A stretch of DNA of 64,000 bases from Primulina eburnea (lineage: Eukaryota; Streptophyta; Magnoliopsida; Lamiales; Gesneriaceae): NCBI RefSeq assembly GCF_022965805.1, contig NC_133104.1:26780069-26844068 (forward strand), read 5' to 3'. Position 1 is the first letter of the stretch. Each line of letters begins with the position of its first letter. The notes beneath the pieces were generated by a model, which worked only from the letters and a program-made list of their open reading frames with translations, made no database searches and had not been told where the DNA came from. A program made the translations under genes and the position numbers. Positions 1,660-62,530 of the stretch are shown piece after piece.

Positions 1660-3097
1660 TGATAAGTGCATTTTATGCACTTATATTAGTCCTATATTTC
1701 ATATAGATTGTTAGTTTTTTCGGGCGGAATTACGCTTTTTTTGTTATTTCTGGTGTGATTGCAGGAATCTAGGTGCGGATACAACATGTGCGTGAAAACG
1801 AGCTAAAATGGCGCCTAGGAGAAGAAGTGTGAGCAATACTCCGAAAGGTGGAATGCTGAAAGATCCGCGCACATGCGCGACATATTCCCGCGCACATACG
1901 CACAACTAGCAGGGAGAACGGCGCATATGCGCCCCAAAATCCGCGCATATGCGCGACCCATACAGAGAGTTCAGCGCATATGCGCCACTCAAGGCGCGCA
2001 TGTGAGCAAGAAAGAACAGATGACAACCCGAGAGCGACGCGCATATGCGCCGCTTATGGCGCGCATATGCGCGCAAGAAGAAGATCAGCACCCGAAGCAC
2101 ACGCGCATATGCGCGAGTTTGTGCCGCGCTTATGCGCGCGACGCGAGATTCAGAAATAAAAAGGGTTCGGCGTGGATCTTAAAAGGGTTCCGAAATATTA
2201 TTGCACAGCCGTCATACCACTCAAAAGAAAGGAGAAAAAGTGAGAGCGCACGGAGCACGGGACGCGAAGAACGGAGATAGAAGACGCTGAATCCGGACAC
2301 GGAGACGCACTTCCATCTCTCGCCAACACGTTCTTAATTCGGTTTCTTACTTTTACGTTTTTAATGATTACAAACAGGTTTTGTATTGATTTAATTACGA
2401 GTATGAACTAATTCTATGTTCTAGAGATTGATGTAGTCTTGGTTGAACCTATGTTATTGAATTTTTAACTTTTCATCTAATTAATTCGTCGTGTTTATTT
2501 GTGATTTCTTGTGATTAATGATTTTGGATTACTGGCCATAATTCGATTGATTGAATAATTAAAATCTAACACTCGAAAGAGGGGATTGAAATTAGGACAG
2601 GAGAAATCACATCGTTAGATATTTATAACGTGTAAAAGATGTATAACTCTGACGAATCCATAAGAGAACCTTGGTTGCATTTATTACGTGTTGCTATATT
2701 TTGAATAGACATATTAAAATCGGTAATAGGTAATACAGTTCTATTTATCACTCGACAGAGGGAGTAGAAACATTGCGAGTTCTTGGTTATAAATGCGATG
2801 CAATTTAATAACATGTTAGTTAATGCCGATTTAGCATAGGGGAAGCCAGACGAAATCATATCTCTAGATTTATTTCTTCAGTGAATTCTATACTGCGTGC
2901 TAGAATTACAGTAATTGCTATTTTATTTGAATTTATTACAAACCAACCATTCGATTTGTCTAAATAAAGTTGAGCTATGTCAATTATGGTAATTAATATA
3001 CAAACTTTGAATAATTACTCCTCGTGGGATCGATATCTGTACTCATACAGTACTAAAACTTGACACCGTATACTTGCGGTAGTGAAAACACGCAACA
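1660..3097 (+). repeat. 5' LTR of element B (1438 bp)
   Basis: Starts TGATAAGTGC and ends CGCAACA, just before the primer site. U3 holds the palindrome array 1867-2137. Downstream, a segment TTGCACAGCCGTC near 2200 lies in the likely transcription-start region. The 3' LTR (12307-13734) is 10 bp shorter because part of one array unit is missing. Confidence 0.93.
1867..2137. repeat. Array of ten GCGCATATGCGC-type palindromes in U3 of 5' LTR B
   Basis: Unit centres are near 1872.5, 1895.5, 1926.5, 1948.5, 1979.5, 2001.5, 2044.5, 2066.5, 2108.5 and 2131.5. Spacings are 23, 31, 22, 31, 22, 43, 22, 42 and 23 bp. The core is GCGCATATGCGC, with variants such as GCGCACATGCGC and GCGCTTATGCGC. The spacers are not repeated. 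The array lies 200-480 bp from the LTR start, upstream of the likely transcription start. Confidence 0.9.
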
Positions 3098-3103
3098 AGT
3101 TTT

Positions 3104-3121
3104 TTGCGCCGTTGCCGGGGA
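3104..3121 (+). other. Primer binding site of B, tRNA-Asp type
   Basis: TTGCGCCGTTGCCGGGGA, six bases after the LTR end, is complementary to the 3' end of plant tRNA-Asp (CCCCGGCAACGGCGCCA) with one mismatch at its second base. Element A has the perfect version at 17598-17615. This primer site is typical of Athila elements. Confidence 0.85.
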
Positions 3122-3238
3122 GTAAACTATTTAATTGCATATTGATATAATTACTAAGTAGTATTGATCTTAATTTAGACTTCATTTTATTTTGTTTTCT
3201 TTATTTTGTTAATCTATAGTCTTTTTGTTTTGCAGTGC

Positions 3239-6200
3239 ATGCGAAAATATCAAAATCCCGACTTGCTAATTTTTGATCCGGAGATCGAAAGAACTGCCAG
3301 GAGATTAAGGAAAGCAAGGAGAGACGAAATTAAAGCAATGGCTGAAAACAGAGACAACCAGAATGAGCTCCCTAGAGAGGTGCCAATCCGAGAACATTTC
3401 CGCCCTATCATCAACGCCCACTACTCTGGAATAGCTCGTGGAACTATTGCTGCTAATAATTTCGAGCTAAAGCCCGCACTCATCAACATGGTTCAACAGA
3501 ACCAATTTGGAGGAGCAGCCACCGCAGATCCCCATCTTCACCTCAGAACTTTTCTGGAGATCACGGATACGGTAAAAATGAATGGTGTTTCTGACGAACT
3601 TATTCGATTGCGCCTGTTTCCGTTTTCTCTTAGGGATCACGCAAGGAGTTGGCTCCAATCTCTACCGCTGGGAAGTGTTACTACTTGGGCGGATTTGGTT
3701 ACGAAGTTCTTGTCAAAATATTTTCCTCCTGCTAAATCTGCTCAGCTGAAAATAGATATCACCAACTTTAGGCAGAGAGAATTTGAGGTATTATATGAGG
3801 CGTGGGAGCGATACAAAGAGTTACTCAGGAAGTGTCCGAATCATGGATATGCAGATTGGGTACAAATCGAGCTATTTTACAATGGTTTGGATGGGCCGAC
3901 TAGAGGGAATGTGGATGCTGCTGCTGGAGGTACTGTTTTTTCTAAAACACCTGATGAGGCCTATGAATTGCTTGAACAGATGACCATAAACAGTGATCAG
4001 TGGCCGAGTGAAAGATCTGGATCAGAGAAACCTGCTGGAGTGTATGCTGTAGACCCGATCACATCACTTACTGCACAAGTTTCGGCATTGACCGCACAGA
4101 TTGTAGCGATGAACAAGCCAGGCCAATCTACGTCTGAGGTAGCATTGGTGACTGCTGAGGAAGAGCCAGTTATGGAGGAAGCTCAGTACATCAACAACCG
4201 TGGCTTTGGAGGCTATAGAGGTAATCCTCCCCTTAATACTTATCATCCAAGTTTGAGGAATCACGAGAATTTCTCTTATGCGAACAACAAGAACGTGTTG
4301 AATCCTCCACCGGGGTTCAATACACAGAAAGGGGAAGGAAAGCCATCTTTTGAAGATCTAGTTGGCACATTTGTGACTGAGTCTGGGAAGAGAATGGCGA
4401 GAACTGAGTCTCGTCTTGATAACATGGAGACACACATGGGTAATATGGGTGCCACGATGAAATCCTTGGAAACACAGATTGGGCAACTAGCCAATGCTTT
4501 AAAGGATCAGAATCGAGGACAGTTTCCCAGTAATACCGAGGTGAATCCTAGGGAACAGTGCAAAGCTGTCACACTGAGGAGTGGCAAAGAAATTGGGATC
4601 CCAGAGTCTACTGAAGAAAGTGTAGAGATCACAGTTGAGGAAGATGAGGAGAAGAGTGCAAGTGTTAGAGAAGAGGAGCCTGAGAAAGTACTTAAACAGC
4701 AGCCTTTACCGAAGGTAAATCTTCCATATCCACAGAGGTTCAAGAAGAAGGGGTTAGATGATCAGTTTGCGAAATTTCTGGAAATTTTCAAGAAAATACA
4801 CATCAACATCCCATTTGCCGATGCATTGGAGCAAATGCCCAATTATGCTAAGTTCATCAAGGATGTGATGTCCAAAAAGAGAAAACTTCAAGAATTTGAG
4901 ACCGTAAAGCTGACTGAAGAGTGCAGTGCAATACTCCAAAGGAAACTACCCCAGAAACTCAAAGATCCAGGGAGTTTTACTATTCCTTGTGTTATTGGTG
5001 GTTCTAGAGTAAATAGAGCTTTATGCGATTTAGGTGCTAGTATAAATTTAATGTCTTTTTCTATTTACAGGACTTTGGAGCTTGGCGAGGTGAAACCTAG
5101 CACTATCACTTTGCAGCTGGCGGACAGATCACTTACCTATCCACGAGGGATAGTAGAGGATGTACTGGTAAAGGTAGACAAATTCATATTTCCTGCTGAT
5201 TTTGTCATCTTAGATATGGAAGAAGATCAGGAGACGCCACTTATCTTTGGAAGGCCATTCCTAGCTACCGGAAAAGCCTTGATTGATGTGCACAAGGGCG
5301 ATCTCACTTTGAGAGTAGGTGAAGATGAAGTCGTGTTCAACATCTACAACACCATCAAGGGACCAAATGAGGTAAGTACTTGTAATAGCATTGATATAAT
5401 TGATTCATGTGTATCTCATGTTGGTGCAGGTAGGATGACAAAGGACTCTTTGGAGAGATGCTTGTTGGAATCAGCTTCTACACTGGATGAAGATGATTGG
5501 GATGTACAAGAGGAGTTACTTGCTCTCAATACACTACCTAAGGAAAAGAGTGATACCCAACTTGATGAGTTACTTGAGGATGCAAGTAAAGAGGTACCAA
5601 AAGCATCTCCTGTATTGAAGGATTTACCGAGTCACTTGTGCTATGCTTTCCTTGACGAGGGGTCATCACATCCGGTAATTATATCTTCTGCTCTTACTAG
5701 TGATGAAAAGGATAAGTTGTTGAGGGTGTTGCGAGAATTTAAATCTGCGTTGGGATGGACAATTGCTGATATAAAGGGGATTAGCCCCACTGTTTGCATG
5801 CATAAAATATTGATGCAGGAGTCCTATTCACCCTATGTTGATCATCAGAGGAGGCTTAATCCAGCCATGAAGGAGGTTGTGAGATCTGAGGTATTAAAAT
5901 TGTTAAATGCTGGTGTTATTTATGCTATATCTGATAGTTCATGGGTTTCACCAGTACAAGTAGTGCCCAAGAAAGGGGGAATAACTGTAGTAAAAAATGA
6001 GAATAACGAATTGATTTCAACTCGTCCAGTGACTGGTTGGCGAGTGTGTATAGACTACAGAAAATTGAATGATGCTACTAGGAAAGATCACTTCCCTCTT
6101 CCCTTTATTGACCAAATTCTTGATAGAGTAGGTGGTTATCATTATTATTGCTTTCTAGATGGTTATTCAGGTTACAATCAGATTGTTATAGCACCGGAGG

Positions 6201-6916
6201 ATCAAGACAAGACTACCTTCACTTGTCCCTACGGTACATTTGCCTTTAGGAGAATGCCATTTGGACTTTGCAATGCACCTGCTACGTTTCAGAGGTGTAT
6301 GATGGCTATATTTTCTGACATGGTTGAGGAGATAATGGAGGTTTTCATGGATGATATAATTGTCTTTGGTTCATCCTTTGATCACTGTTTGCAGAATTTG
6401 ACCCTTGTTTTGCAGAGATGTCAGGAGAAGAATCTAGTGTTGAATTGGGAGAAATGTCACTTCATGGTGCAAGAAGGTATTGTGCTTGGGCACAAAATTT
6501 CAGCGAGAGGAATGGAAGTGGACAGAGCCAAAGTTGTGGCAATTGAAAATCTCCCACCACCAAAGAATGTGAAAGGGATCAGAAGTTTCTTGGGACATGC
6601 TGGGTTCTATCGTCGTTTTATTAAAGATTTCTCTAAAATTACTAGACCTTTATGTAATCTGTTAGAGAAAGATTCTACATTTATTTTTGACGATGATTGT
6701 TTGCAGGCGTTTAACAAGATCAAGACAGCTCTGACTTCCGAACCTATCATGATAGTGCCTGACTGGAAGGAGCCCTTTGAGCTCATGTACGATGCGAGCG
6801 ACTATGCTGTAGGAGCAGTATTGGGACAAAGGCGAGACAAGATGTTCAAGACTATCTACTATGCTAGTCGTACACTTAACGCAGCCCAACAGAATTACAC
6901 CACTACTGAGAAATAG
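3239..6916 (+). CDS. Element B gag-protease-reverse transcriptase (gag-pol, first part)
   Basis: Polyprotein start. I chose the ATG at 3239 because upstream in-frame codons are leader sequence and the family pattern FDPEIERTARR follows shortly after. Gag core lies at about 3540-3990 (FPFSLRDHARSWL, LSKYFPP). Protease is at about 5010-5260 with CDLGAS in place of the usual DSGA. Reverse transcriptase is at about 5900-6450 with VCIDYRKLND, RMPFGLCNAPATFQ and the catalytic FMDDII. RNase H begins near 6775 (MYDASDYAVGAVLGQ). The frame ends at TAG 6914-6916, where relatives read TTEKELL, so this is a single nonsense change; the frame continues unchanged to 8503. Gag has no CCHC zinc knuckle. The product would copy element RNA to DNA in cytoplasmic particles. 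Confidence 0.92.
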   Translation: MRKYQNPDLLIFDPEIERTARRLRKARRDEIKAMAENRDNQNELPREVPIREHFRPIINAHYSGIARGTIAANNFELKPALINMVQQNQFGGAATADPHLHLRTFLEITDTVKMNGVSDELIRLRLFPFSLRDHARSWLQSLPLGSVTTWADLVTKFLSKYFPPAKSAQLKIDITNFRQREFEVLYEAWERYKELLRKCPNHGYADWVQIELFYNGLDGPTRGNVDAAAGGTVFSKTPDEAYELLEQMTINSDQWPSERSGSEKPAGVYAVDPITSLTAQVSALTAQIVAMNKPGQSTSEVALVTAEEEPVMEEAQYINNRGFGGYRGNPPLNTYHPSLRNHENFSYANNKNVLNPPPGFNTQKGEGKPSFEDLVGTFVTESGKRMARTESRLDNMETHMGNMGATMKSLETQIGQLANALKDQNRGQFPSNTEVNPREQCKAVTLRSGKEIGIPESTEESVEITVEEDEEKSASVREEEPEKVLKQQPLPKVNLPYPQRFKKKGLDDQFAKFLEIFKKIHINIPFADALEQMPNYAKFIKDVMSKKRKLQEFETVKLTEECSAILQRKLPQKLKDPGSFTIPCVIGGSRVNRALCDLGASINLMSFSIYRTLELGEVKPSTITLQLADRSLTYPRGIVEDVLVKVDKFIFPADFVILDMEEDQETPLIFGRPFLATGKALIDVHKGDLTLRVGEDEVVFNIYNTIKGPNEVSTCNSIDIIDSCVSHVGAGRMTKDSLERCLLESASTLDEDDWDVQEELLALNTLPKEKSDTQLDELLEDASKEVPKASPVLKDLPSHLCYAFLDEGSSHPVIISSALTSDEKDKLLRVLREFKSALGWTIADIKGISPTVCMHKILMQESYSPYVDHQRRLNPAMKEVVRSEVLKLLNAGVIYAISDSSWVSPVQVVPKKGGITVVKNENNELISTRPVTGWRVCIDYRKLNDATRKDHFPLPFIDQILDRVGGYHYYCFLDGYSGYNQIVIAPEDQDKTTFTCPYGTFAFRRMPFGLCNAPATFQRCMMAIFSDMVEEIMEVFMDDIIVFGSSFDHCLQNLTLVLQRCQEKNLVLNWEKCHFMVQEGIVLGHKISARGMEVDRAKVVAIENLPPPKNVKGIRSFLGHAGFYRRFIKDFSKITRPLCNLLEKDSTFIFDDDCLQAFNKIKTALTSEPIMIVPDWKEPFELMYDASDYAVGAVLGQRRDKMFKTIYYASRTLNAAQQNYTTTEK

Positions 6917-8503
6917 ATGCTAACAGTGGTGTTTGCATTCGACAAATTTAGAACATATCTCATTGGCACAAAGGTAACGGTTTTTACTGACCATGCAGCT
7001 CTTCGTTACTTGTTTGCCAAAAAGGATGCAAAGCCCAGGTTGATACGATGGATACTCCTACTTCAAGAATTTGACTTTGAGGTCAAAGACAAGAAAGGTT
7101 GTGTGAACCAGGTGGCTGATCACCTGTCACGACTAGAGGTGGAAGAAAGAACTGAGGGTGGAGCTATCAACGAGTCGTTCCCAGATGAACAACTTTTCAA
7201 GGTAAGTGTTACACATCCGTGGTTTGCAGATATAGCTAATTTCCTTGCTGCAGGAGAATTACCTTCAGATTTAACTTATCATCAAAAGAAGAAATTTCTT
7301 CATGATGCCAAGTTTTATCTGTGGGACGATCCGTTCTTGTTCAAGAGATGCGCTGATCAGATAATCAGACGATGTGTAGCAGAGGAAGAGGCGGGTATGA
7401 TTCTAGAGCAGTGTCATTCCTCACCCTACGGTGGACACTTTGGAGCATCTAGAATAGCAGCTAAGGTATTACAGTCGTCAGGTTTCTATGGGCCTAATTT
7501 ATTTAAAGACAGTTATACTTTAGTCAAGTCATGTGATAAATGCCAAAGAGTTGGCAATATTTCTAGACGACATGAATTACCACTAACAAATATTTTGGAA
7601 GTGGAACTCTTTGATGTCTGGGGTATTGACTTTATGAGTCCTTTCCCATCTTCTTTTGGTCAATCTTACATTTTACTTGCTGTCGATTATGTGTCAAAAT
7701 GGGTGGAAGCAATCGCCACCAGTACTAATGATGCTCGAGTTGTTGTTAAGTTTGTCCAATGGAACATCTTCACAAGATTCAGAACGCCTAGAGCCATTAT
7801 CAGTGATGAAGGTACGCATTTCTGTAACAAAATTTTTAACTCACTATTGGCCAAATATGATGTGAAGCACAGGGTGACACTGGCATACCACCCGCAAGCC
7901 AATGGGCAAGCAGAGATATCCAACCGGGAGATCAAACAATTCTTAGAAAAGACAGTGAAGACAAACCGGAAGGATTGGGCGATCAAGCTAGATGATGCAT
8001 TATGGGCGTACAGGACTGCATACAAGATACCTATCGGAATGTCTCCTTATAGGTTGGTCTTTGGAAAAGCTTGTCATCTCCCTGTGGAACTGGAGCACAA
8101 AGCATATTGGGCTGTGAAAAAGCTAAATTTTGATAAGGGAGCATCGGGCGAACAACGACTGCTGCAGCTGAATGAGATGGAGGAGTTTAGGAATGATGCA
8201 TACGAAAATGCCAAGATATACAAGGAAAATACCAAGAGATGGCATGACAAGCAGATTCTTCGACGACTTTTCGAACTGGGGCAACAGGTGTTACAATTCA
8301 ATTCTCGACTGAGGCTGTTTCCTGGTAAGTTAAAATCACGATGGTCTGGACCGTTCACAGTGGAAGCAGTGTACCCACATGGGGAAATTGAGCTAAAATG
8401 CAAAAATGGTGAGACATTCAAAGTCAATGGTCAGAGGGTCAAGCATTACTTTGAAAATGAAGTGAGACACATGGACAACATCCCACTGGGAGAACCAAAG
8501 TAG
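6917..8503 (+). CDS. Element B RNase H end and integrase (gag-pol, second part)
   Basis: Continues the gag-pol frame directly after the TAG at 6914. It opens with the rest of RNase H ([31 protein letters not shown]). Integrase follows: an HHCC finger ([11 protein letters not shown] near 7410, CDKCQR near 7535), first D in [11 protein letters not shown] near 7620, second D in [10 protein letters not shown] near 7800 (usually ISDGG), and E in [18 protein letters not shown] near 7890-7940. The C-terminal part ([23 protein letters not shown]) is the usual DNA-binding end, and no chromodomain is visible, as in Athila. Ends TAG at 8501. It would not be made as part of the polyprotein without readthrough of the upstream stop. 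Confidence 0.9.
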
Positions 8504-9373
8504 ACTAAAGCAAGTCAGGCTGATGACGTTAAACCAAGCGCTGTGTGGGAGGCAACCCACATTTATTTATTTTTGCATTCAATTTATTTAATTTTTATTT
8601 CGATTCCTTCGCTTATTAATTTTAAATTTCTCGATTCAAGTATTAATTTGCATTTTGTTATTCTTTTGTAGGTATTTTATTTAAAAAAAAATGCGAAGGA
8701 CAGTTTGCCACGCGCACATGTCAACGAATTTCCGCGCACATGCGCATAATTGGCCGAGGGCTCAGCGCATATGCGCCATTCCGAGCGCGCACATGCGCGA
8801 AATTTCCAGTAGCTTTGGCGCATATGCGCCACTCCGGGCGCGCATCTGCGCCATATTTCCAGAAAGGTCGTGCATATGCGCCAATCTGGGCGCGCATATG
8901 CCCTAACTTCCAGCATGCCGGCCAGTAGCTTTCGCGCAGTATTTAAAAAAAAAAAAGAGGACATCGCGATTTCACAGCCGAACATCACTCCCCTTTTCAG
9001 AAACCCTCATCACCGCCGCCGCCTCCTAGAAACGCCGCCGCCGCCTCCTTCAAAAGCTGCTGCCGCCGTCAATCGCCGCCGTGAAACTCCAACCACACTC
9101 CAACTTTTGGTATTTTTTTTGAACTCAAGGATTTATTCAGATTTTTGACTCAAAACTTGAAATTGGTGTAAATCTATATGGGAAATTGGTGAGATTGTGT
9201 AGTGGATGCTCTAAATTGAAGTATTTTATGAGTGGGGTGTACGTGCATTGCTTGTTGGATTAGTGGTTAGTGAAATTTTATTGTTCAAGTTTGGGAAGTC
9301 CGATTGTCTTCGATTTTGGTCTATTGTGGGTTGAATTTGGTGTTGATTGTGATATTTTGATTATTGAATTGAG
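8504..9373 (+). promoter_or_regulatory. Spacer between pol and extra ORF of B: palindrome array plus promoter-like segment
   Basis: No coding signal. It holds a palindrome array (8712-8903), then TATTTAAAAA at 8940-8949, then TTTCACAGCCGAACATCACTCC near 8970-8991, which resembles TTGCACAGCCGTCATACCACTC near 2200 of the element's own LTR. A CCG-rich leader follows (9010-9080). The order array, TATA-like box, start-like segment, leader and ORF suggests an internal promoter for the ORF at 9374. This is inference; no transcript evidence is available. Confidence 0.6.
8712..8903. repeat. Internal array of eight GCGCATATGCGC-type palindromes in element B
   Basis: Centres are near 8717.5, 8739.5, 8770.5, 8792.5, 8823.5, 8845.5, 8875.5 and 8897.5. 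Spacings are 22, 31, 22, 31, 22, 30 and 22 bp, a strict alternation with a 53-bp period. The short spacers resemble each other (CACTCCGGGC, CATTCCGAGC, CAATCTGGGC), so this array looks like a decayed 53-bp tandem repeat with two palindromes per unit. Confidence 0.9.
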
Positions 9374-10537
9374 ATGGCACCGAAGAAAAAATCAAAGAAA
9401 GGCGCATCATCTTCCGCAAGTTATGATTCACACCGATTTTGGAATGAAGAAGCACAACAGGTATATGAGAATTCGATGACTCGGTCGATTATCCCAGAGA
9501 GGGGATTTAATTTATCGACATTACGTGGTTTTATTGAGCGAGAATTGGAAAGAAGACAGTGGGTTGAATTTGCTCAACCACCTTTTGACGCTGTGATTTC
9601 TGTCGTCAGAGAGTTCTATGCCAATCTGCGGATACGGCATGATGACTCAAAGGTACATGTGAGAGGAAAATTGGTATCGTTTGATTCTCAGACGATAAAT
9701 ACGATATATCAGATGCCGAGCCTTGAAGAGGACGAGTACAGTGCATTCTTAGACGATGGGGTCGATTATTCAGAGGTAATCCGGACTGTGTGTCAGGCAG
9801 GCGCCATATGGAAGATGAGCGCGAGTGGTCCAATCTCACTGAAGAAATCCGAGATGACTCCTAATGCAAGTGCGTGGACGTCATTCGTGTTGGCTCGAGT
9901 TCTCCCATCCTCACATTACCACGACGTAACCAAAGACAAAGTTGCGCTTGTCTTTGCGATTTTGATGGGCAAATTTGTGAACTTGGGAAGACTAATATAT
10001 GGCTCGATCATGAGAGCCGGCATTGGATTAACCACGGTCGCCCTGCCATGCCCCCACATTGTTACCGAACTCTGCAGACAGGCCGGCGTCTCTTGGTCGC
10101 CTGATGAGCAAGTACTTAAGCCGAAGGCTTCCATTGTTGCTCCCTACATGCCTCCTGTTGATTCAGATGACGAGGACCTGCCACAGGCACCGCTTCAACC
10201 ACTACCACCACCGGCAGCAGCCAGAGAGCGCAGGGGAGACAGATTGAGGCGATTAGAGATTGAGATGCAGGAGCAGAGGATATTACTAGTTGAGCAGCGC
10301 CAGGTGCTGGATTCGCTTCAGTACCGCACGGACTATGCCATGGGGTATATGATGGACTTCACGTCCGTTCTTGCTCAGCGGTTCCCACCTTTAGGTCCAG
10401 ATGATCCCATGTTTCCCCAGACACCTGTTTGGCCACCACATTATCCACCACCACCACCACAGTATCCAGGACCTCCTCCGCAGGCCCCACCCCAGCACAT
10501 GGATGAGGACGTTGATGATGATGACGGCGAGCACTGA
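9374..10537 (+). CDS. Extra ORF of Athila element B, plant-transposon-protein type
   Basis: An intact 387-codon ORF downstream of pol, in the place where Athila elements carry their env-like or extra gene. The N-terminus is basic (MAPKKKSKKG), like a nuclear localisation signal. The middle (FWNEEAQQVYENSM, SASGPISLKKSEMTPNASAW, VFAILMGKFVNLGRLIYGSI) matches my memory of the 'putative plant transposon protein' domain. A charged helical stretch near residues 283-320 could form a coiled coil. The tail is proline-rich and then acidic (DEDVDDDDGEH). I see no signal peptide and no clear membrane anchor, so nothing supports an envelope protein here; function unknown. The start ATG follows a CCG-rich leader and a promoter-like region. 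Confidence 0.8.
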   Translation: MAPKKKSKKGASSSASYDSHRFWNEEAQQVYENSMTRSIIPERGFNLSTLRGFIERELERRQWVEFAQPPFDAVISVVREFYANLRIRHDDSKVHVRGKLVSFDSQTINTIYQMPSLEEDEYSAFLDDGVDYSEVIRTVCQAGAIWKMSASGPISLKKSEMTPNASAWTSFVLARVLPSSHYHDVTKDKVALVFAILMGKFVNLGRLIYGSIMRAGIGLTTVALPCPHIVTELCRQAGVSWSPDEQVLKPKASIVAPYMPPVDSDDEDLPQAPLQPLPPPAAARERRGDRLRRLEIEMQEQRILLVEQRQVLDSLQYRTDYAMGYMMDFTSVLAQRFPPLGPDDPMFPQTPVWPPHYPPPPPQYPGPPPQAPPQHMDEDVDDDDGEH

Positions 10538-10605
10538 CGCTCGTCCTGTGAGGTATGCTTGTCTCGTTTATTTCTTGTTTATACATTGAGGACAATGCAT
10601 ATTTT

Positions 10606-10617
10606 AAGTTTGGGGGG
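10606..10617 (+). other. Internal polypurine-tract-like copy AAGTTTGGGGGG
   Basis: Identical over 12 bases to the tract next to the 3' LTR (12292-12303), but located 1.7 kb upstream, just after the extra ORF. It could act as a second plus-strand primer. This is inference from sequence identity only. Confidence 0.6.
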
Positions 10618-12291
10618 TTGATTTTATCTGATAATCTGAGTAGATTATTTGCTTTAGTTTTTAACTTTGATGTTATTTGCTTTGTTATTTTTTTTTATGT
10701 TTATTTAATTTAAAAATAAAAAATAAAAAATTTAATTCAGTCGTTATTTTTATTTTCGTAGTCGTGAATTGTTTTTTTTTAGAGTTGTGGAATTTAGGTG
10801 ATAACCAAACAATGATGAGAGTTGACCCGAAATTCATGCTATTCCTTGATTACGAATCCGAACGCATGCAATCTTTACTTAACTGTTTACACATTGACTC
10901 ACGATTGCTATGATTGTTGATACACACGATGTCGAGAGAGTGTTCATGTGGTTGTGATTTGAAATGAATGAATGGACTCCAAAACCTGCATGTTGATTAC
11001 TTGTTGTTGAGTTGCATGTTCACTAACACCAAAATGATTCAGGCAGTCTTTGATTTATGTTGGGCCTGTTTTTCCTTGAATAATTTGTCGATTGTTAACC
11101 CTTTGAGCCTAAATGAGAATGGGATGTGATTTGTTCTGTTTGAATACCCGAAAACATGATCTGTCTATGTTTGTTGATTGGTTAATTGAAAGTAGTCTAG
11201 AACTTGGCTTGGCACTCTTCGAGGCGAGATACGGGTATTGTGTGACTTAGGGTTGATTTAGGCGATTTTTGGAACGTTTGAGCCTTTCAAGCCTACCCAT
11301 AACATCATATTATGCCCTAGTGTCCCATGTTTGAGCTTAATGAAAATCGAATGGAGTGTGCCAAGGCACACAACAGCCCCCATTCGTATCAATTCTAAAC
11401 TCCTACGTCAACTACCAACTTTTGAGCACATACACTAATGCCTACCGAAAACTGAGAGAAAACGAACATGTGTATCACTACAAAAGTTCTTCTCCCTTGT
11501 GTGCATATAAGAATATCATGAAAAGGTGAAAAGAAAGAAAGAAATGTTTATTAAAAAAAAAGGAGAAGTTGAATAAAGAGGAAAAGAGTATGACATGTGA
11601 TGTAAAACAAAAAAGAGGGCAAAATGATGAAACTGTTGTGGCAAGACAAGTGGAAGTGAAACAAAAGGAAGGAGACGCGTGTTGAAAAATGAATTTGTTT
11701 GTTTTCTCTCACTTTTGACTCCCTACCTTCATTTGAAGCCATTAGCCATAGCCTAACGTTATAAGCTTAAAAGACCTATTAACCGAGTCACACGTACCCA
11801 ATATACTAGTGGAGAAGAGTTTTCAAGGTTAAGCCTATGGACACTTGAAAAATACCGTTGATAGACACAAGATGTGATTGTTTACATGTGCGCATCTCAT
11901 GATATTGGATTTTGTTTGGTTAATTGTTGTCTTCACAATACCACTTTGTTTAGCCAAATGTTACCCTACAAGTCCTGTTGATTTATGAAGGTAAATGTGT
12001 GCTTCAATGATTTTGCTAATTACATGTGTGTCGAGGAGTCCAGAACTTTATGAGATGAACAGCTATGAACTTATCTTGGCATTTGGAGTGGGTAAACGAG
12101 AATAGCAGAACACACACGCACGTGAACTTGAGTAATTTGGCATGTGTTCGATTCAAAATCATGGAAACTGTAATCTCTGAGGCTAGAGGTTATTCTTTTA
12201 TTCCACAATTCTTGTTCGTTTAGTTTAGTTTAGTCTAGTTAATGTTTTATTTATTTTTAGTTTTATTTTTGCTCGGGACTAGCAAAAGTTT

Positions 12292-12303
12292 AAGTTTGGG
12301 GGG
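12292..12303 (+). other. Polypurine tract of element B
   Basis: AAGTTTGGGGGG lies four bases before the TG of the 3' LTR. This is the expected place and type of plus-strand primer for Athila elements. Confidence 0.8.
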
Positions 12304-12306
12304 ATT

Positions 12307-13734
12307 TGATAAGCGCATTTTATGCAATTATATTAGTCCTATATTTCATATAGATTGTTAGTCTTTTCGGGCGGAATTACGCGTTTTTTGTTATTTCTGG
12401 TGCGATTGTAGGAATCTAGGTGTGGATACAACATGTGTGTGAAAACGAGCTAAAATGGCGCCTAGGAGAAGAAGTGTGAGCAATACTCCGAAGGGTGGAA
12501 TGCTGAAAGATCCGCGCACATGCGCGACATATTCCCGCGCACATGTGCACAACTGGCAGAGAGAACGGCGCATATGCGCCCCAAAATCCGCGCATATGCG
12601 CGACCCATACAGAGAGTTGAGCGCATATGCGCCACTCAAGGCGCGCATGTGCACGAGAAAGAACAGATGACAACCCGAGAGCGACGCGCATATGCGCCGC
12701 TTATGGCGCGCAAGAAGAAGATCAGCACCCGAAGCACCCGCACATATGCGCGAGTTTGTGCCGCACGTAAGCGCGCGACGCGAGATTCAGAAATAAAAAG
12801 GGTTCGGCGTGGATCTTAAAAGGGTTCCGAAATATTATTGCACAGCCGTCATACCACTCGAGAGAAAGGAGAAAAAGTGAGAGCGCACGGAGCACGGGAC
12901 GCGAAGAACGGAGATAGAAGACGCTGAATCCGGACACGGAGACGCACTTCCATCTCTCGCCAACACGTTCTTAATTCGGTTTCTTACTTTTACGTTTTTA
13001 ATGATTACAAACAGGTTTTGTATTGATTTAATTACGAGTATGAACTAATTCTATGTTCTAGAGATTGATGTAGTCTTGGTTGAACCTATGTTATTGACTT
13101 TTTAACTTTTCATCTAATTAATTCGTCGTGTTTATTTGTGATTTCTTGTGATTAATGATTTTGGATTACTGGCCATAATTCGATTGATTGAATAATTAAA
13201 ATCTAACACTCGAAAGAGGGGATTGAAATTAGGACAGGAGAAATCACATCGTTAGATATTTATAACGTGCAAAAGACGTATAACTCTGACGAATCCATAA
13301 GAGAACCTTGGTTGCATTTATTACGTGTTGCTATATTTTGAATAGACATATCAAAATCGGTAATAGGTAATACAGTTCTATTTGTCACTCGACAGAGGGA
13401 GTAGAAACATTGCGAGTTCTTGGTTATAAATGCGATGCAATTTAATAACATGTTAGTTAATGCCGATTTAGCATAGGGGAAGCCAGACGAAATCATATCT
13501 CTAGATTTATTTCTTCAGTGAATTCTATACTGCGTGCTAGAATTACAGTAATTGCTATTTTATTTGAATTGATTACAAACCAACCATTCGATTTGTCTAA
13601 ATAAAGTTGAGCTATGTCAATTATGGTAATTAATATACAAACTTTGAATAATTACTCCTCGTGGGATCGATATCTGTACTCATACAGTACTAAAACTTGA
13701 CACCGTATATTTGCGGTAGTGAAAACACACAACA
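12307..13734 (+). repeat. 3' LTR of element B (1428 bp)
   Basis: Starts TGATAAGCGC and ends CACACAACA, followed by ATACA (13735-13739), the right-hand target duplication. It is closely similar to 1660-3097. The 10-bp length difference falls inside the palindrome array, where the sequence around 12705-12715 lacks the core of one unit. Confidence 0.93.
12514..12776. repeat. GCGCATATGCGC-type palindrome array in 3' LTR of B
   Basis: Counterpart of 1867-2137. Units follow the same order and spacing up to the seventh; the eighth has lost ten bases (GGCGCGCAAGAAG instead of a full palindrome). Some CG steps differ, for example ATGTGCAC for ATACGCAC and CGCACGTAAGCGC for CGCGCTTATGCGC. Confidence 0.85.
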
Positions 13735-18299: not shown

Positions 18300-18408
18300 T
18301 GTAAGGTCCGAGATTTATTAGTATTCATTAATATAAGACTCGGAAGATATGAGAATGCATGACGTGCAAGGAAAGGAGAAAAGACATGAGAAATTAGAAG
18401 ATTGCAAG

Positions 18409-18712
18409 ACCGCACCCGCGCCCAAAACAGGAGTGCACCCGCGGTCATGCAATTAGGGATTTTAGCAAGAAAAGCCGAAGCCATACCGCACCCGCGGTGC
18501 AATCCAGACCGCACCCGTGGTGCATGGACAGTAAGTTGGCAAATTTTATTCGTAGCATCACCGCACCCACGGTGTAGAACGACCGCACTCGCGGTGACAA
18601 GACCGCACCCGCGGTGCTGAGGAGACCGCACCCGCGGTCGTCAATGTTGGAAAATAAAAACCATGCCGAAGCATGAGCGCACCCGCGGTCTGGACATGAG
18701 TGCACCTGCGGT
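18409..18712. repeat. Array of ten ACCGCACCCGCGGT dyads in 5' LTR C
   Basis: Each unit is an inverted repeat ACCGC/GCGGT around ACCC. Centres are near 18415.5, 18438.5, 18491.5, 18514.5, 18566.5, 18588.5, 18608.5, 18631.5, 18682.5 and 18705.5. Spacings are 23, 53, 23, 52, 22, 20, 23, 51 and 23 bp. The motif is unrelated to the GCGCATATGCGC of B, E, F and G, but the spacing pattern is the same. Confidence 0.9.
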
Positions 18713-45781: not shown

Positions 45782-45793
45782 GCTCTGATACCA
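45782..45793 (-). other. Primer binding site of element E, tRNA-iMet type
   Basis: The minus strand reads TGGTATCAGAGC, five bases inside the 5' LTR end at 45799. Same type as in C and F. Confidence 0.88.
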
Positions 45794-45798
45794 CCTGT

Positions 45799-57332: not shown

Positions 57333-59106
57333 TGTAATGCCCGAGATTTTTACTTTGTTAATCTAAGATTATTGATTCAAGAATTGTTGCGATTAAAAGG
57401 ACCATTCCGAGGCATGAGTTGAGTTGGCATGTGATATTGATATGTGCGAGGGCAGAACACCTCGCGCATATGCGCGAGAAGAGACGCGCTTATGCGCGAG
57501 ACAAACATGGAACCTCGTGCATATGCTCGGAGACAGGGCGCGCATATGCGCGAGCATGGAAGAGGACCTCGCGCATATGCGCGAGTACTTGAAGTGTGAG
57601 GCGTAGAGACCAGCAGGTCTCGCTCATATGCGCCGAGGGAGGTCGCGCATATGCGCGAGATGTGCTGCCCCAAAGAATGAGCCACATTTCTCCACCATAC
57701 ATGATATATATGTATAATACATTCATTCCATCAGATTCAGTAGCAAGGAAAACCGAGGAAAGCTTCAGAGAGGTTTCAAGTTTTCTCCTATCTTAGAATT
57801 TGATTTGTGCAAGATCCGTCCATTCAAATTTCAATCCTAGTGTAGTACCGTATTCCTCTCGACAAAGGCTTCACAAGGACGCAAGTTTTCTTATGTTTTG
57901 TTATGGTTCGGCATTTATGTATTGAAGGAATCATGATATGATTAATATATGGTGTTCTTGAGTTATTAGACATCGTATAATCGAAACCGGATTGAAGAAC
58001 GGATACCGTATGATATTATTATAATTTTTCAGATTTGATTTGATTGAGATTAAACAGATTTGGTATCAGATTGTGTTTATTGATTGATTATGAGTTGTTG
58101 AGATTGGCGGTCTGTTATTTATATCGCCGGTGTATCGAGATTGTGATGTTATGTCGTCGAAACAGAATTAGATTGAGTTCTGATTATATTTGGTATTGAT
58201 TGGGGTATATGTTGATATTGTATTCCTTGAATATGTCATTCCAAATTTATATTGAAGATTCAAAGACAGAACATAGCCAATCCCCAACAAAAGAAAGGTA
58301 TAAATCAATGTTAACCGGGAGATACGACTCGAGTTATATTCGACTTGAGTTTCCCAAAACCACATACTTGTTTGTTATTGTTTTAATACCTTTGATTTAC
58401 TTGAATGTATATGCTTATTCTATTGATTTAGCAGAGAAAAGAAGATAGATATTGAGAACGAGTCATTGGCAGAGGTGCCAAGTCTTGGACAGAGGTGCCT
58501 AGACATTGGATGTTTGGTTATATCAATATTGCTTAGAAGTAGATCGACTTCTATTGCAGAGATTTAATATAATATACCAAAATCCATGAACCGGGATCCC
58601 TAGACTAGACTAGATCAGAGTCAATTCATAGATATGAGTGTGATTTACAGGTTTATATCGTTCATAGTTTCAGACTTGATACAAGTTATTGATAATTGTT
58701 ATACGCTTTTATATATGTTTATATAATTGCATGTATACGTTGTTTATACTGGGAATTATATTCTCACCGGAGTTATCCGGCTGTTGTTGTGTTTGTATGT
58801 GTGCATGACAACAGGTGGGACATGATCAAGGTCAAAAAGAGGATGAACAATCAAAATCAGCGTGGAGATCCGGACCCAGAAGTAGAGTTTGTTTCAGCAC
58901 TACATTTGTAGTTGTTGAACCTTAGTTTGAATTGAATGTATTTTGTAGAAGACTTGTACTTTTACTTTTGATGTTTATATCAGATTGATTATGATATGTT
59001 CCGCACTTGTATTTTAAAAAGAAAAAAAAATTAGACCCAATCTATTTAATTGATCCATTTATTCCCAAAGATGATTAAGAAATGAATTAGCGTCTGGGTC
59101 CCCACA
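57333..59106 (+). repeat. LTR F (5' LTR of a truncated chromovirus)
   Basis: Starts TGTAATGCCCGAG, ends GGGTCCCCACA, and is followed by a tRNA-Met primer site (TGGTATTAGAGC, 59112-59123, one mismatch). 1774 bp. U3 holds a palindrome array (57464-57656) and then TGATATATATGTATAATA (about 57701-57718) as TATA-like element. Confidence 0.88.
57464..57656. repeat. GCGCATATGCGC palindrome array in LTR F
   Basis: Centres near 57469.5, 57491.5, 57522.5, 57545.5, 57576.5, 57627.5 and 57650.5. Spacings are 22, 31, 23, 31, 51 and 23 bp. Variants include GCGCTTATGCGC and GTGCATATGCTC. Confidence 0.9.
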
Positions 59107-59557: not shown

Positions 59558-60031
59558 CTGTTCTAAACCTTCTGTATGTATATAGGAATTCAATTCATAA
59601 CACTTCATTTATGAATTGAATTCCCCCGACTTAACTTTTTAATTTTTTAAAATTTTTAAATAATATTATATTAATATAATATATACTATTTAATATTTTA
59701 ACATCGGTATGTCCCTTCGGACCAGTCAAACAATCAAATTTTCCAAAACTCAAAACATGAAACTTCTATATCTTTGAGTTTTCTACCGCTGGGATTTTGA
59801 CAGACAAAATTTTACGAAGTCAAATTTTTGCAAAAGCCTAGTGCGTTCGTAGTTGAAACAAAACTTCCATCCTTCCATAATCTTCTTTGAGAAATTCGAA
59901 TTCCATATCTTCCATTCATTCTGAAAAATTCTTAGTATCAAAAATTCCACCACAACTGTGTGCCCATTCAAATTTTTTGCCTTCTATCCTTTGTTACTGT
60001 TATGATATTTCACCTAGATTTATTCTAGGGA
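59558..60031. other. AT-rich sequence of unknown origin
   Basis: Starts at the gag breakpoint. It contains an inverted repeat ATGAATTGAATTC/GAATTCAATTCAT (59584-59623) and an AT-only stretch (59635-59700). I see no gene; it may be the 5' flank of the ORF at 60032. Confidence 0.5.
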
Positions 60032-60514
60032 ATGGCTGCTCCACATACTCGTGCTCAAGCGGTCCTTCATATTTGCCGGCTCACGCTAGATAATCAAGCT
60101 ATGGAAATTGTGACTTTGAAGGTGCAACTTGCTAGAGAGAAACTAGAGAAACAAGTACTTATCGAGGTCAGAAACATACTTGAGACGGACGTGCAGCAAC
60201 TCACTCATCATCTGGACTTGGCTGAGAGCCAACTTCTTCAGATACCTACTAAGTCAGCCCATATCGAGTGCCTAGCTACACTGAACAGGGACTTGCAAGA
60301 GAGAGTGGAGACAGAGAGAGACCGTGCTACTTGGGCTCGTCAGCATCAAGAAGGGTTCAAAAACAAGCAAGAACGATACATAGCGAAGATTCATAGCGCC
60401 ATGGATAGGCTTTAAGACCAGAATAATTATTTGCATCTGGTGGTAGAGAATGTGGAAGAGGAAAAGGAAGCACCGATGGAAGTGGTCAACGACGACAGCG
60501 AAAATGACGATTGA
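60032..60514 (+). CDS. Unidentified coiled-coil ORF, probably a remnant
   Basis: 127 codons from ATG 60032 to TAA 60413-60415. After the stop the same frame continues (DQNNYLHLVVENVEEEKEAP, then an acidic end DDSENDD and TGA near 60512), so an original frame of about 160 codons seems broken once. The protein is rich in charged residues with heptad-like leucines (VTLKVQLAREKLEKQVLIEV, LNRDLQERVETERDRATWAR), so it probably forms a coiled coil. No family recognised. A similar charged fragment (EIIILKDKNDKLERDNYQLD) lies at 60763-60880, just before LTR G, so both may be pieces of one gene or of an element's accessory ORF. Confidence 0.45.
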
Positions 60515-60875
60515 GACATGATAAACTAGACTATTTCGATATTATGATTGTAATAAAAATTATGATTTGAAAATTATTAAGTGTAATGACTTATTTCTAA
60601 ATAAAGACTTTATTATTATCCTTAAATTATCGCCTTTACATAGCAAAATTTATGAGAATTTTATAAACCTGTCAAAAAAAATTATTTTCTTTTAATCTTT
60701 ATAGGAAACAATCATAGATCCTCAAAGCGTTATAATTGACTCCAAAAACAGCTCCAAGAAAGGAAGCAGAAATCATAATATTGAAGGATAAAAATGACAA
60801 ACTCGAGAGGGATAATTATCAACTAGACAGAAATAACGTATGCATGATGGAGGACCTTCATCAGGCTAGAGAAGA
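60515..60875. other. Spacer with a second coiled-coil fragment
   Basis: AT-rich, then a short frame (60736-60880) with a heptad-like charged protein segment, cut by LTR G. No start or stop can be assigned with confidence. Confidence 0.4.
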
Positions 60876-62530
60876 TGTAATGCCAGAGATTTTATATCTG
60901 TTATTCTGCGATTATTGATTTATGAATTGATATGATTATGAAGGATCGTTCCGAGACTTGAATTGAGTTTGCTTGTGAGATATGAGGTGTGAGGACAGTA
61001 CCCCTCACGCATGTGCGCGACATGATGCGCGCACATGCGTGAAATGGGCAGAAGACCTCGCGAATATGCACGCACTCATATGGGAAGTCAAGTACAATTC
61101 CAGAGAACCTCGCGCATATGCGCGGAAGGAGGGCGTGCATATGCACGAGCTGCCGAGAAGAAAATTTCCGAGACCAGTAAGTCTCGCGCATATGCACCGA
61201 GGAGGGTCGCGCATATGCGCGAGACGTGCTGCGTGAAGAAGTGGCCACTTGGCCTTAGACATGCAATATATATATATATATATATATATCCTTCTCTTCT
61301 CAGAATGAAAGAAAGAAAGAATCGAGAAAAGGAACGAGACAAGTTGTAGAAAATCCTTACGCCTTTTATTTTAGAAATTTGAAGTTTGTGAAAGATCCGT
61401 CCGTCAGATTTTCGATCCAACTTCAGTACTGTGTTCCTATCGACGCAGGCTTCACATGGACGTAAGTTTTCTTAAGTTTTGATATGATTTGAAATTATGG
61501 TATTACCAGAATCGGATATGATTTATATATGGTGTTTCTGATATGTTAAACATCGTATAATTGAAACTGGATTAAAGAACGACTATCGTATGAAATTGTT
61601 ATGATTTTCAGAATGGATTTGATTGAGATTCGATATCTGATTGTGTTGTTATTGATTATGGGAAATAGATATTAATCTCTGACTGATATGGTATTGCTGG
61701 GTATATTGAGATTATGCCGTTGAAACAGGATTTGATTTGTTGTGATTATATCCAGTATTGATTAAGTAGGGTATTGATATTGTATTCCTCGCTATTGTCA
61801 TTGCCAGATTGAGCATTGGCAGACTTTGAATCGAGACTTCGATTTCAGGAGATCGACAGAACGAAAGGTATAAATCAATGTTGAATTGGGATTGCACAAC
61901 TCGAGTTTGATTTAACTTGAGTTTCCCAAAATCACATACTGAATTGTCATTGCCTTGATATGTTGCAATGTGTGATATTGATATGCTTATTCTATTGAAT
62001 TATAGGAAAGCATGAGTTAGAGTCTTGGGCAGATATGCCTAGTATTTGGCAGAACCGCCAAGTCACTCGAATTTTGTATATATATCGATGTGCTTAGGAG
62101 TATATCGACTTCTATTGCAGTTATTCGATATAGATAGCCAAAGTCTGGGAATAAGAACGTACCACCATCTAGTTGAGGAAAGTAGGTGGGAGAACGTTGA
62201 GTTCTTATTCAACCGGGATCCCTAGATTAGAAATGAGTCGAGTCTGAAGTGACGAGTCCAGAGTTTTATTTATTACTTTATATCGATACAGGCCTTTCAG
62301 ATTTGATACATGCTATTGATATGTGTTTCATGCTTTTATATATGCTTTTTATGAATGCATGTTTACATTGTTTATACTGAGATATAATTCTCATCGGAGT
62401 TTCCGGCTGTTGTCTTGTTTGTATGTGTACCTGAAAACAGGTGGCGCAGGGTCAGGATCAGGAAGAGGATGAGAGATTCAGAAATAGCATGGAGATCCGG
62501 ACTTAGAGTAGATTGATTTTCAGTACTTTA
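60876..62530 (+). repeat. LTR G, interrupted by LTR H
   Basis: Starts TGTAATGCCAGAG, related to but diverged from F. It has a palindrome array (61007-61221), then an (AT)n run (61267-61290) as TATA-like element. It is cut at 62530 by LTR H in inverse orientation, before the expected GGTCCCCACA end. Confidence 0.82.
61007..61221. repeat. GCGCATATGCGC palindrome array in LTR G
   Basis: Centres near 61012.5, 61034.5, 61065.5, 61117.5, 61140.5, 61191.5 and 61214.5. Spacings are 22, 31, 52, 23, 51 and 23 bp. Variants such as GTGCATATGCAC and ACGCATGTGCGC keep the dyad symmetry. Confidence 0.88.

Follow-up and report, generated by a model that had tools for sequence, protein, structure and literature searches.

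The window analyzed here, a stretch of 64,000 nucleotides of Primulina eburnea (GCF_022965805.1, NC_133104.1, positions 26,780,069 to 26,844,068, forward strand), contains several LTR retrotransposons and remnants of others that carry arrays of short dyads (Table 1). Element A shows the domain order of Ty3 elements (RT-RH before integrase), a long LTR, and an additional open reading frame (ORF) between the integrase and the 3' LTR, and we take it to be Athila-like. Elements C and D, which gave RVP_2 and SH3_Tf2-1 matches in Pfam and agree in 81 to 86% of most pol residues, are presumably Tekay-like; among sense-strand ORFs of at least 200 aa, neither was found to have one in addition to gag-pol.

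Table 1. Retrotransposon features and dyad arrays of the window
Feature	Position	Strand	Remarks
Element A, Ty3 element	1660..13734	+	LTRs 1660-3098 and 12307-13735, 97% identical; TSD ATACA
M1 array, 5' LTR of A, 10 dyads	1866..2138	+	gaps 23,31,22,31,22,43,22,42,23
M1 array, internal in A after integrase, 8 dyads	8711..8904	+	gaps 22,31,22,31,22,30,22
TATTTAA run, putative internal TATA box	8940..8956	+	starts 36 bp past last full dyad
Accessory ORF of A, 387 aa	9374..10537	+	Pfam PF20167 (putative plant transposon protein)
M1 array, 3' LTR of A, 9 dyads	12513..12775	+	
Element D, Tekay-like chromovirus	18300..27071	+	LTRs 18300-20271 and 25160-27072; TSD AATAG
M2 array, 5' LTR of D, 10 dyads	18409..18712	+	TATA run starts 47 bp downstream
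M2 array, 3' LTR of D, 9 dyads	25269..25549	+	one 23-bp unit less than 5' LTR
Element E, pol end (integrase), more distant chromovirus-like remnant	27784..29422	+	
M2 array downstream of E pol, 9 dyads	29827..30099	+	probable 3' LTR
Element C	38987..47781	-	LTRs 38987-40966 and 45799-47781, 99% identical; TSD CACTC
M1 array, 3' LTR of C, 8 dyads	40603..40837	-	TATA run starts 52 bp downstream
M1 array, 5' LTR of C, 8 dyads	47416..47650	-	TATA run 52 bp downstream
Aligned part of G1, an old LTR related to C	57333..58581	+	
M1 array in LTR G1, 7 dyads	57463..57657	+	TATA-like run 47 bp downstream
Aligned part of G2, an old LTR related to C and G1	60876..62142	+	
M1 array in LTR G2, 7 dyads	61006..61221	+	TATA-like run 45 bp downstream

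All ten palindrome arrays reported by the first-pass annotation were found in the window. Each consists of copies of a single dyad, either M1 (CGCGCATATGCGCG) or M2 (ACCGCACCCGCGGT), of which the genome (812 Mb) contains 24,002 and 52,056 exact copies, respectively, together more than 76,000, while the reversed M1 and M2 used as controls had no exact copy genome-wide. In Markov-shuffled versions of the window (five shuffles each), 6 to 15 M1 and 3 to 15 M2 scattered matches appeared when up to 4 mismatches were allowed, and 0 to 3 when up to 3 were allowed. When clusters of similar GC-rich dyads were sought without reference to the motifs, nine of the ten arrays were recovered, all but the internal one (8712-8903), with no cluster beyond the known arrays in the window and none in five shuffles. 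M1 is palindromic, with a TA step at its centre. M2, contrary to the first-pass annotation, is an incomplete palindrome with an asymmetric 4-bp core and without the TA step; its dyads all point in the same direction in each of the three M2 arrays of the window, and only one opposite-strand match was seen across 13 further loci. M1 is common to Tekay-like and Athila-like elements, and M2 is present in Tekay-like elements and, tentatively, in one Athila-like remnant. A text search of the literature for GCGCATATGCGC gave no match, and neither motif could be tied to a known site.

The arrays had been described as lying in the promoters of unrelated elements, but three of them belong to element A, C is closely related to D, and the G1 and G2 LTRs are related to C. 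Nine are indeed located in LTRs, that of E probably so, as clusters about 110 to 480 bp into LTRs of 1.4 to 2 kb, but the tenth is internal to element A. The observed/expected CpG ratio was 1.14 to 1.68 in seven arrays versus 0.84 for the whole window.

The proposal that neighboring dyads are separated by only a few distances (22-23, 30-31, 42-43, and 51-53 bp) held both in the window and outside it. The 52 gaps of seven window arrays, second LTR copies left out, measured 20 to 23 bp (29 gaps), 30 to 31 bp (11), 42 to 43 bp (2), or 51 to 53 bp (10). Seventeen fresh arrays, taken from other places in the genome (22 rows, of which 5 were dropped), contained 120 gaps in the 15- to 56-bp range, of which 116 fell into the classes 21-23, 30-32, 40-43, and 49-54 bp, and two more gaps measured 68 and 71 bp. 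Exact pairs of the M1 core, counted genome-wide at spacings of 22 to 39 bp, numbered 14,186 at 22 to 23 bp and 4,095 at 30 to 32 bp (exactly 31 bp in 50/50 among the matches listed) but only 99 at 24 to 29 bp and 106 at 33 to 39 bp. The peaks at 22-23 and 31 bp thus appear genome-wide, while those at 42 and 51-52 bp were seen only in the sampled arrays.

Two features absent from the first-pass annotation define a module: the dyads occur as pairs, with a CAG or CCG box at a distance of exactly 7 nt upstream of the pair. The order is box, 7 nt, 14-bp dyad, 8 to 9 nt, and second 14-bp dyad, and most arrays consist of three to five such modules in a row, joined by linkers of a few fixed lengths. 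In the fresh arrays, that is, out of sample, CAG stood at the box offset of 41 of 72 leading dyads, compared to a mean of 1.6 and a maximum of 7 in shuffles, where any trinucleotide at any offset reached 12 at most. The module is polar, and the box gives M1 arrays their direction: among 31 linkers of 40 to 54 bp, 18 had CAG ahead of the dyad that follows, and none had the mirror CTG at the opposite end. Boxed M2 modules mostly carry CCG instead of CAG, and many modules have no box. The earlier view that spacing rather than sequence is conserved therefore has to be amended, since a linker box at a fixed offset is conserved as well.

The dyads had been proposed to face the same side of the DNA, and the spacing classes do lie near multiples of 10.4 bp, the commonest gap of 22 to 23 bp corresponding to 2.1 to 2.2 helical turns. 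However, the class-level fit to a period of 10 to 11 bp was weak when compared to random classes (P = 0.03 with four classes and 0.47 with three), and the best period was 9.8 for neighboring gaps and 10.7 for all distances. Because independent spacing classes are few, these values argue only weakly for a common face. A nucleosome-positioning or DNA-bending signal with helical period would agree with the near-multiples of 10.4 bp and with the TA step at the M1 centre, but such a signal needs neither a strict 14-bp sequence nor a box at an exact 7-nt offset; given also the weak helical fit and the lack of the TA step in M2, we regard this explanation as very improbable.

Comparison between families showed 79 to 90% identity in dyad columns, 34 to 54% in spacers, and 42 to 63% in the aligned LTR part outside the array, the dyad columns having been chosen by motif likeness in either row, which biases the comparison toward dyads. 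Within the Tekay-like families linkers could be aligned, as could those of E (M2) with those of G2 (M1), whereas those of Athila-like and Tekay-like elements showed no likeness beyond the box (P = 0.06). Although alignable spacers had been named by the first-pass annotation as a sign of common descent, these comparisons do not demonstrate that all arrays derive from a single 53-bp repeat. That the arrays are functionless tandem repeats produced by slippage, with a spacing inherited from a 53-bp unit, is very improbable: the near-tandem units of 53 to 54 or 23 bp in some arrays, the single 23-bp unit by which the two LTRs of D differ, and the alignable Tekay-like linkers would fit, but dyads are far more alike than spacers, the box goes with the pair downstream whatever the linker class and is all that linkers of the two lineages share, and pairs at intermediate distances are rare. 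Slippage between dyads could still keep the spacing in part, rather than selection. CpGs between the LTRs of A, C, and D had decayed at 8 of 83 sites in dyads versus 14 of 151 elsewhere (with three more likely pairs of LTRs included, 15 of 180 versus 20 of 282). Dyad CpGs of integrated copies thus decay at the ordinary rate, as fast as others, so that the conservation of the dyads suggests selection acting while lineages are active rather than low mutation.

In most Tekay-like LTRs, the array ends 45 to 58 bp before a TATA run. Among 11 fresh Tekay-like arrays, TATA was found at 47 to 58 bp in nine, at 77 bp in one, and not at all in one; among 13 M2 loci, second LTRs included, it was found at 46 to 50 bp in six and was missing from seven. 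No TATATA, TATAAA, or ATATAT was found within 90 to 100 bp in Athila-like LTRs (0/2 in element A of the window and 0/4 fresh ones, one of which has TTTAAA at 40), and the same search detected none in the E-like M2 arrays (E itself, L031, L032, and L044) and none for L036, L040, and the M1 array of L019. In the window and in two further Athila-like loci (L013 and L023, where the frame is broken), the internal array is followed by TATA-like letters and then by the PF20167 ORF, as if it were a promoter for this accessory ORF.

Close relatives may carry different arrays. From position 519 on, the LTR of C (M1) matches that of another element, L024 (M2), at 93.8% identity across 1,322 bp, but the two are only 48 to 54% identical over positions 101 to 500; the reverse swap, D (M2) versus L020 (M1), is less clean, with divergence reaching about position 1000. 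Since the entire array varies between close relatives, promoter cassettes seem to have been swapped, and we infer exchange as the cause from these alignments. A broader idea, a common Ty3 promoter language with M1 and M2 as dialects read by two related dimeric factors and with cassettes passed between elements, is doubtful.

Motif sets that differ between relatives are also found in the VANDAL transposons of Arabidopsis, whose VANC proteins target a nonpalindromic 9-bp motif, YAGTATTAY (Hosaka et al. 2017, PMC5735166); the parts of this literature available to us describe motifs that are dense, in one orientation, located in noncoding DNA, and changing together (PMC5735166, PMC10398659). The arrays share with them the dense motifs in noncoding DNA, the near unipolarity of M2 and the polarity of M1 through its box, the single motif per array, and the presence of M1 or M2 in close relatives; VANDALs differ in being transposons with their own binding protein, and no TATA-proximal geometry was found in the accessible part of PMC5735166. 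A similar antisilencing system, in which an element-encoded protein such as PF20167 would lift silencing in cis and in trans while Tekay-like elements ride along, would also suit a protein with a basic stretch at its start, a proline-rich and acidic tail, and an array upstream of its own ORF. It is nevertheless unlikely: the ordinary decay of dyad CpGs gives no sign of stable methylation protection, C and D showed no additional ORF among sense-strand ORFs of at least 200 aa, PF20167 had no relative in the PDB by sequence and a structure model too poor to use (mean pLDDT, 38), and the distance to TATA suits a promoter better.

The claim that no such system had been described does not hold for the overall architecture. 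In Sireviruses (Ty1/copia), the number of dyad copies in RM-bearing elements ranges from 8 to 32; the copies lie mainly in the LTR's upper half, ahead of a TATA box, and form CpG islands in most elements, and ENV-bearing members have a second cluster upstream of ENV (Bousios et al. 2010, PMC2829016). According to the same source, in the part accessible to us, the dyads are near-identical across very divergent elements, and a regulatory role was proposed without experimental test in that paper (PMC2829016). The arrays studied here likewise lie in the upper LTR half, are followed by TATA in most of the Tekay-like LTRs but not in Athila-like or E-like ones, are CpG-rich by observed/expected ratio rather than by island calls, and in Athila-like elements include one ahead of an ORF in the ENV position. 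Unlike Sireviruses, which are Copia elements, those described here are Ty3; Sirevirus membership was rejected, as A, D, and C have integrase after RT-RNase H and Ty3-type Pfam matches. The Sirevirus core is CGG-CCG (except in Tnd-1), while M1 has neither CGG nor CCG and M2 has the reverse order, CCG-CGG, and no spacing rule, pairing, linker box, or cassette swap was found in the accessible part of PMC2829016. What is added is the occurrence of this architecture in two Ty3 lineages, together with the exact spacing, the polar box, and the alternative arrays of close relatives. In maize Sireviruses, palindrome-rich LTR regions are described as mapping hot spots of small RNAs (PMC5311732), and the arrays might accordingly be small-RNA hot spots or sites at which a silencing or chromatin factor of the host binds and marks elements for repression. 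Elements would then be expected to lose the sites, yet no part of the promoter is better conserved than the dyads, of which close relatives carry one version or the other, making repression quite improbable.

We favor, with a probability of roughly 60%, the reading that these are proximal promoter arrays, that is, upstream activating sequences, for a dimeric and probably host-encoded activator. The platform for a dimeric DNA-binding protein suggested at first pass agrees with the geometry, with the higher conservation of dyads than of spacers, and with the place before TATA in most Tekay-like LTRs. Each dyad would be occupied by such a protein, the fixed 22- to 23-bp step would let the two dimers on one module touch, and a partner would sit at the box. 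Once occupied, the modules would activate the LTR and, where the element is Athila-like, also an additional promoter inside it that serves the PF20167 ORF, M1 and M2 being alternative specificities within one architecture. The factor most likely belongs to the host, since Tekay-like and Athila-like elements, which have different genes, use the same M1 sites. Repeated host-factor sites in the LTR or leader drive or shape expression in single families, as do the U3 repeat boxes of Tnt1 and Tto1, the heat-shock elements of ONSEN, and the Su(Hw) array of Drosophila gypsy; to our knowledge, none of these forms a site set across lineages or has paired dyads spaced this strictly.

The recurrence of this layout in two Ty3 lineages and in Sireviruses points to a general regulatory design, and a 46-bp probe could serve to fish out the factor that reads it. 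The findings also support, for a Ty3 element, the proposed internal promoter for an ORF downstream of pol. Should the factor that recognizes the module be element-encoded, or have been so in the past, for instance as PF20167, competing retrotransposon lineages would share a trans-acting regulator; should it be a host factor, tens of thousands of ready LTR sites dispersed across this genome could rewire adjoining genes.

All ten arrays of short GC-rich dyads listed by the first-pass annotation were recovered when the window was rescanned with two 14-mers, M1 (CGCGCATATGCGCG) and M2 (ACCGCACCCGCGGT). When the window was searched for groups of similar GC-rich dyads with no motif specified, nine of the ten arrays and zero other clusters emerged; five shuffled sequences gave 0 clusters. 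M1 is a true palindrome; M2 consists of matching arms around an asymmetric core. M2 dyads kept a single orientation within each window array, and 13 further M2 loci yielded one opposite-strand match. Genome-wide (812,487,562 bases, 1,224 contigs), we counted at least 24,002 exact copies of M1 and at least 52,056 of M2, counts of repeats being possibly lower bounds, and 0 copies of either reversed control. Neither similar pair arrays nor confirmed relatives of the Tekay-like pol were found in the viral collection, and pair-array matches in three prokaryote contigs were taken as chance.

The window (C4:26780069-26844068) is a nest of Ty3 LTR retrotransposons in a plant genome, as indicated by a match to a plant snoRNA and by an accessory ORF of element A that belongs to the plant transposon protein family PF20167. 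Self-comparison and target-site duplications (TSDs) delimit three complete elements in it. Integrase follows RT-RNase H in A, D and C, indicating that these elements are Ty3 and not Copia; we take A to be Athila-like and C and D to be Tekay-like. Over most of pol, C and D share 81 to 86% of residues, dropping to 76% for the protease, and the pol regions of A and D share 24 to 38%. M1 is carried by A (two LTRs and an internal site), C, G1 and G2, and M2 by D and E. A match to the plant snoRNA snoR71 at 16890-16997 (score 40.2; Rfam gathering threshold 40) lies inside a minus-strand Athila-like gag-pol remnant.

Retrotransposon features of the window
Feature	Position	Strand	Description
Element A	1660-13734		LTRs 97% alike, TSD ATACA
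Element D	18300-27071		LTRs 98% alike, TSD AATAG
Element E, pol end	27784-29422		More distant chromovirus-like remnant
Element C	38987-47781	minus	LTRs 99% alike, TSD CACTC
G1	from 57333		Old LTR related to C
G2	from 60876		Old LTR related to C
Further LTR	62531-64000, runs off window	minus	Related to C, G1 and G2; any array would be outside

The 52 centre-to-centre gaps of seven window arrays (second LTR copies left out) fell at 20-23 bp (29 gaps), 30-31 bp (11), 42-43 bp (2) and 51-53 bp (10). For comparison outside the window, we sampled 16 regions around the first M1 sites of contig 1, which gave 17 usable arrays after 5 of 22 rows were dropped (the second LTRs in L011 and L012; L018, a copy of L017; L016, unclassified; and a short remnant in L020). 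Among their 122 gaps, 120 lay within 15-56 bp, and 116 of these 120 fell into the spacing classes of the window; gaps outside the classes measured 20, 25, 28, 48, 68 and 71 bp. M2 arrays showed occasional extra gaps of 17, 19, 20, 47 and 60 bp. Short and long gaps alternated in 96 of 105 neighbouring gap pairs, showing that the dyads come in pairs. Distance peaks near 22, 31 and 52 bp had been predicted genome-wide, and the first two were borne out: exact M1 cores 22-23 bp apart (at least 14,186) and 30-32 bp apart (at least 4,095, with 50 of 50 among the matches listed at exactly 31) were abundant compared with those at 24-29 bp (at least 99) and 33-39 bp (at least 106). These counts span 22-39 bp; spacings of about 42 and 52 bp were seen in the sampled arrays, from which the 40-43 and 49-54 classes derive.

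The first-pass annotation had concluded from the spacing that all dyads face one side of the DNA. Four spacing classes did fit a period of 10-11 bp (P = 0.03 against random classes), but three classes did not (P = 0.47). The best period was 9.8 for neighbouring gaps and 10.7 for all distances, and 22-23 bp corresponds to 2.1-2.2 turns. Helical phasing is thus possible, but it is too weak across independent spacing classes to be the main rule. The second LTR of L012 (contig 1, 5332047-5332106) carries three exact M1 dyads at 23 and 23 bp that are absent from its other LTR, which shows growth by slippage.

A further constraint, overlooked in the first-pass annotation, is a trinucleotide box at a fixed offset before the paired dyads. 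In the window, CAG stood exactly 7 nt before 14 of 30 pair-leading dyads, against at most 7 for any trinucleotide at any offset across 5,000 shuffles. The 17 sampled M1 arrays had CAG at this offset before 41 of 72 leading dyads (shuffles at that offset: mean 1.6, maximum 7; over all trinucleotides and offsets: maximum 12). M2 loci, sampled as one locus per M2 place cluster (13 of 30), more often had CCG at the same offset (before 17 of 36 leading dyads, against 5 of 36 for CAG), a count that still includes second LTRs of one element. Within M1 linkers, CAG preceded the downstream pair in 26 of 34 of 31 bp, 9 of 15 of 40-43 bp and 9 of 16 of 49-54 bp; M2 linkers of 49-54 bp, taken from 8 of the 13 loci, had CCG in 11 of 18 and CAG in 3 of 18. 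Among the matches listed for 31-bp pairs, CAG or CTG occupied the exact linker centre in 47 of 50 (counted by eye). The box was tied to the downstream pair in all three linker classes, and a mirror-image CTG at the opposite linker end was found in 0 of 87 linkers, indicating that the module, box-N7-dyad-N8/9-dyad, is polar. The earlier statement that spacing alone is conserved, and not sequence, therefore needs correcting.

In C, G1 and G2 (arrays at 40603-40837, 57463-57657 and 61006-61221), an AGAC...GTCT-type inverted repeat surrounds the CAG box in the linker before the last pair; on either side, the inner pair of this repeat in C differs from that in G1. A small M1 array at L016:4458-4544 comprises three clear dyads and a correctly placed CAG box. 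TATAAATA follows some 155 bp downstream, and the region contains an F-box-like ORF (read from the letters) but no recognisable retrotransposon; the array may belong to a solo LTR remnant or to a host promoter.

We then compared conservation with mutation. Between families, dyad columns were 79-90% identical, spacers 34-54% and aligned LTR outside the array 42-63%, where D versus E contributes 33 outside columns and choosing dyads by motif likeness favours dyads. CpG-rich sites are expected to decay fastest, and between the LTRs of single elements CpG sites did decay faster than other C/G sites, of which about 1% had changed. TSDs support the ends of A, C and D; in the LTR pairs of these three elements, CpG had become TG or CA in 8 of 83 sites within dyads and 14 of 151 outside. 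Adding three likely pairs (L011, L012, L017/L018) gave 15 of 180 and 20 of 282, and three less sure pairs brought this to 17 of 216 and 22 of 404 (Fisher P = 0.30). Dyad CpGs thus decay like other CpGs, a pattern that gives no hint of the dyads being stably shielded from methylation. Since dyads are kept in active lineages yet lost from integrated copies as fast as CpGs ordinarily decay, their conservation points to selection in active lineages.

Close relatives carried different motifs. From position 519 onwards, the LTR of C (M1) matched that of L024 (M2) at 93.8% identity across 1,322 bp; by 100-bp blocks, identity was 48-54% at 101-500, 80% at 501-600 and 84-99% beyond 600 (three blocks at 84-88%, the others at least 94%). 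In the same-motif control, C versus L017, the blocks over 1-400 were 87, 83, 85 and 69% alike, and 401-500 was 51% alike. L036 likewise joins a C-type integrase (92-94%) to M2 dyads. The reverse case is L020, with a D-type integrase end (94%, 140 aa) and LTR (86%, 1,068 bp) and an M1 array in place of the M2 array of D; here divergence from D reaches about position 1000. The likeliest explanation would be a swap of promoter cassettes, for which template switching in reverse transcription is a possible mechanism.

M2 also occurs in a remnant (L029, L030, L054) with a PF20167 relative (33% identity); short stretches of this remnant match the LTR of A, and we tentatively regard it as Athila-like. 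L054 (contig 1, 2214000-2222600) contains a large inverted duplication, apparently of Athila-like 3' halves, whose arms measure about 1.5-1.6 kb and are 95-97% identical; its M2 arrays face outwards, and a PF20167 relative is located within and next to the loop. Descent of all arrays from one 53-bp tandem repeat, which alignable spacers would have indicated, was weighed against the dyad-masked linkers. These were alike for D-E, E-G2, C-G1, C-G2 and G1-G2 (0 of 300 shuffles as high), but Athila-like and Tekay-like linkers showed no likeness beyond the box (P = 0.06), so that a single ancestral repeat was rejected. Array sharing between the two lineages is either old or convergent. As E has an M2 array and G2 an M1 array, an old linker frame may have persisted while its dyads changed.

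The position of the arrays relative to TATA runs differed between lineages. In the Tekay-like LTRs of the window, the last dyad precedes a TATA run by 52 (C), 47 (D), 47 (G1) and 45 bp (G2), and in the sampled Tekay-like arrays by 47-58 bp in 9 of 11, with one at 77 and one without. M2 loci had TATA at 46-50 bp in 6 of 13 and none in 7 of 13. No TATA run was found after the M2 array of E or after the arrays of Athila-like LTRs (0 of 2 in the window; 0 of 4 sampled, one with TTTAAA at 40). The internal array of A (8711-8904) is followed 36 bp on by TATTTAA, a GCCGCC-rich leader and the PF20167 ORF at 9374. Both L013 (minus) and L023 (plus) repeat this arrangement, but their TATA-like letters come 9 bp past the last dyad and their PF20167 ORFs are broken. 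On the plain reading of the sequence, the array is a putative internal promoter. The PF20167 protein had zero solved relatives at E up to 1 and no NCBIfam match, and an AlphaFold model from four alignment rows (mean pLDDT 38) was discarded.

The first-pass annotation knew of no comparable system, yet Sireviruses (Copia) have the same architecture. The parts of PMC2829016 covered here describe 13 Sirevirus elements with palindromic motifs, 12 with a CGG-CCG core, in at least eight copies each; the motifs form CpG islands in most elements, a TATA box follows the island at a mean distance of 37 bp, and ENV-bearing members have further copies before the ENV gene, for which an internal promoter is discussed. 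Those parts describe neither a rule of spacing nor paired dyads nor a box in the linkers, whereas the present arrays have all three. An excerpt of PMC5311732 cites later work on palindromes in maize Sirevirus LTRs. VANC targets, as described in excerpts of PMC5735166 and PMC10398659, are the nearest functional rival. None of the matches listed from open-licence PubMed Central, including PMC11963269, came nearer in motif letters or LTR palindromes in the parts covered.

Taken together, our analysis confirmed and extended the observation of the arrays, and partly supported their interpretation as a promoter platform for a dimeric DNA-binding protein, a function that we infer throughout from sequence. 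Arrays of this kind are known from Sireviruses; new here are their presence in Ty3 elements, a stricter grammar and two dialects, and the promoter cassettes have probably been exchanged between Ty3 elements.
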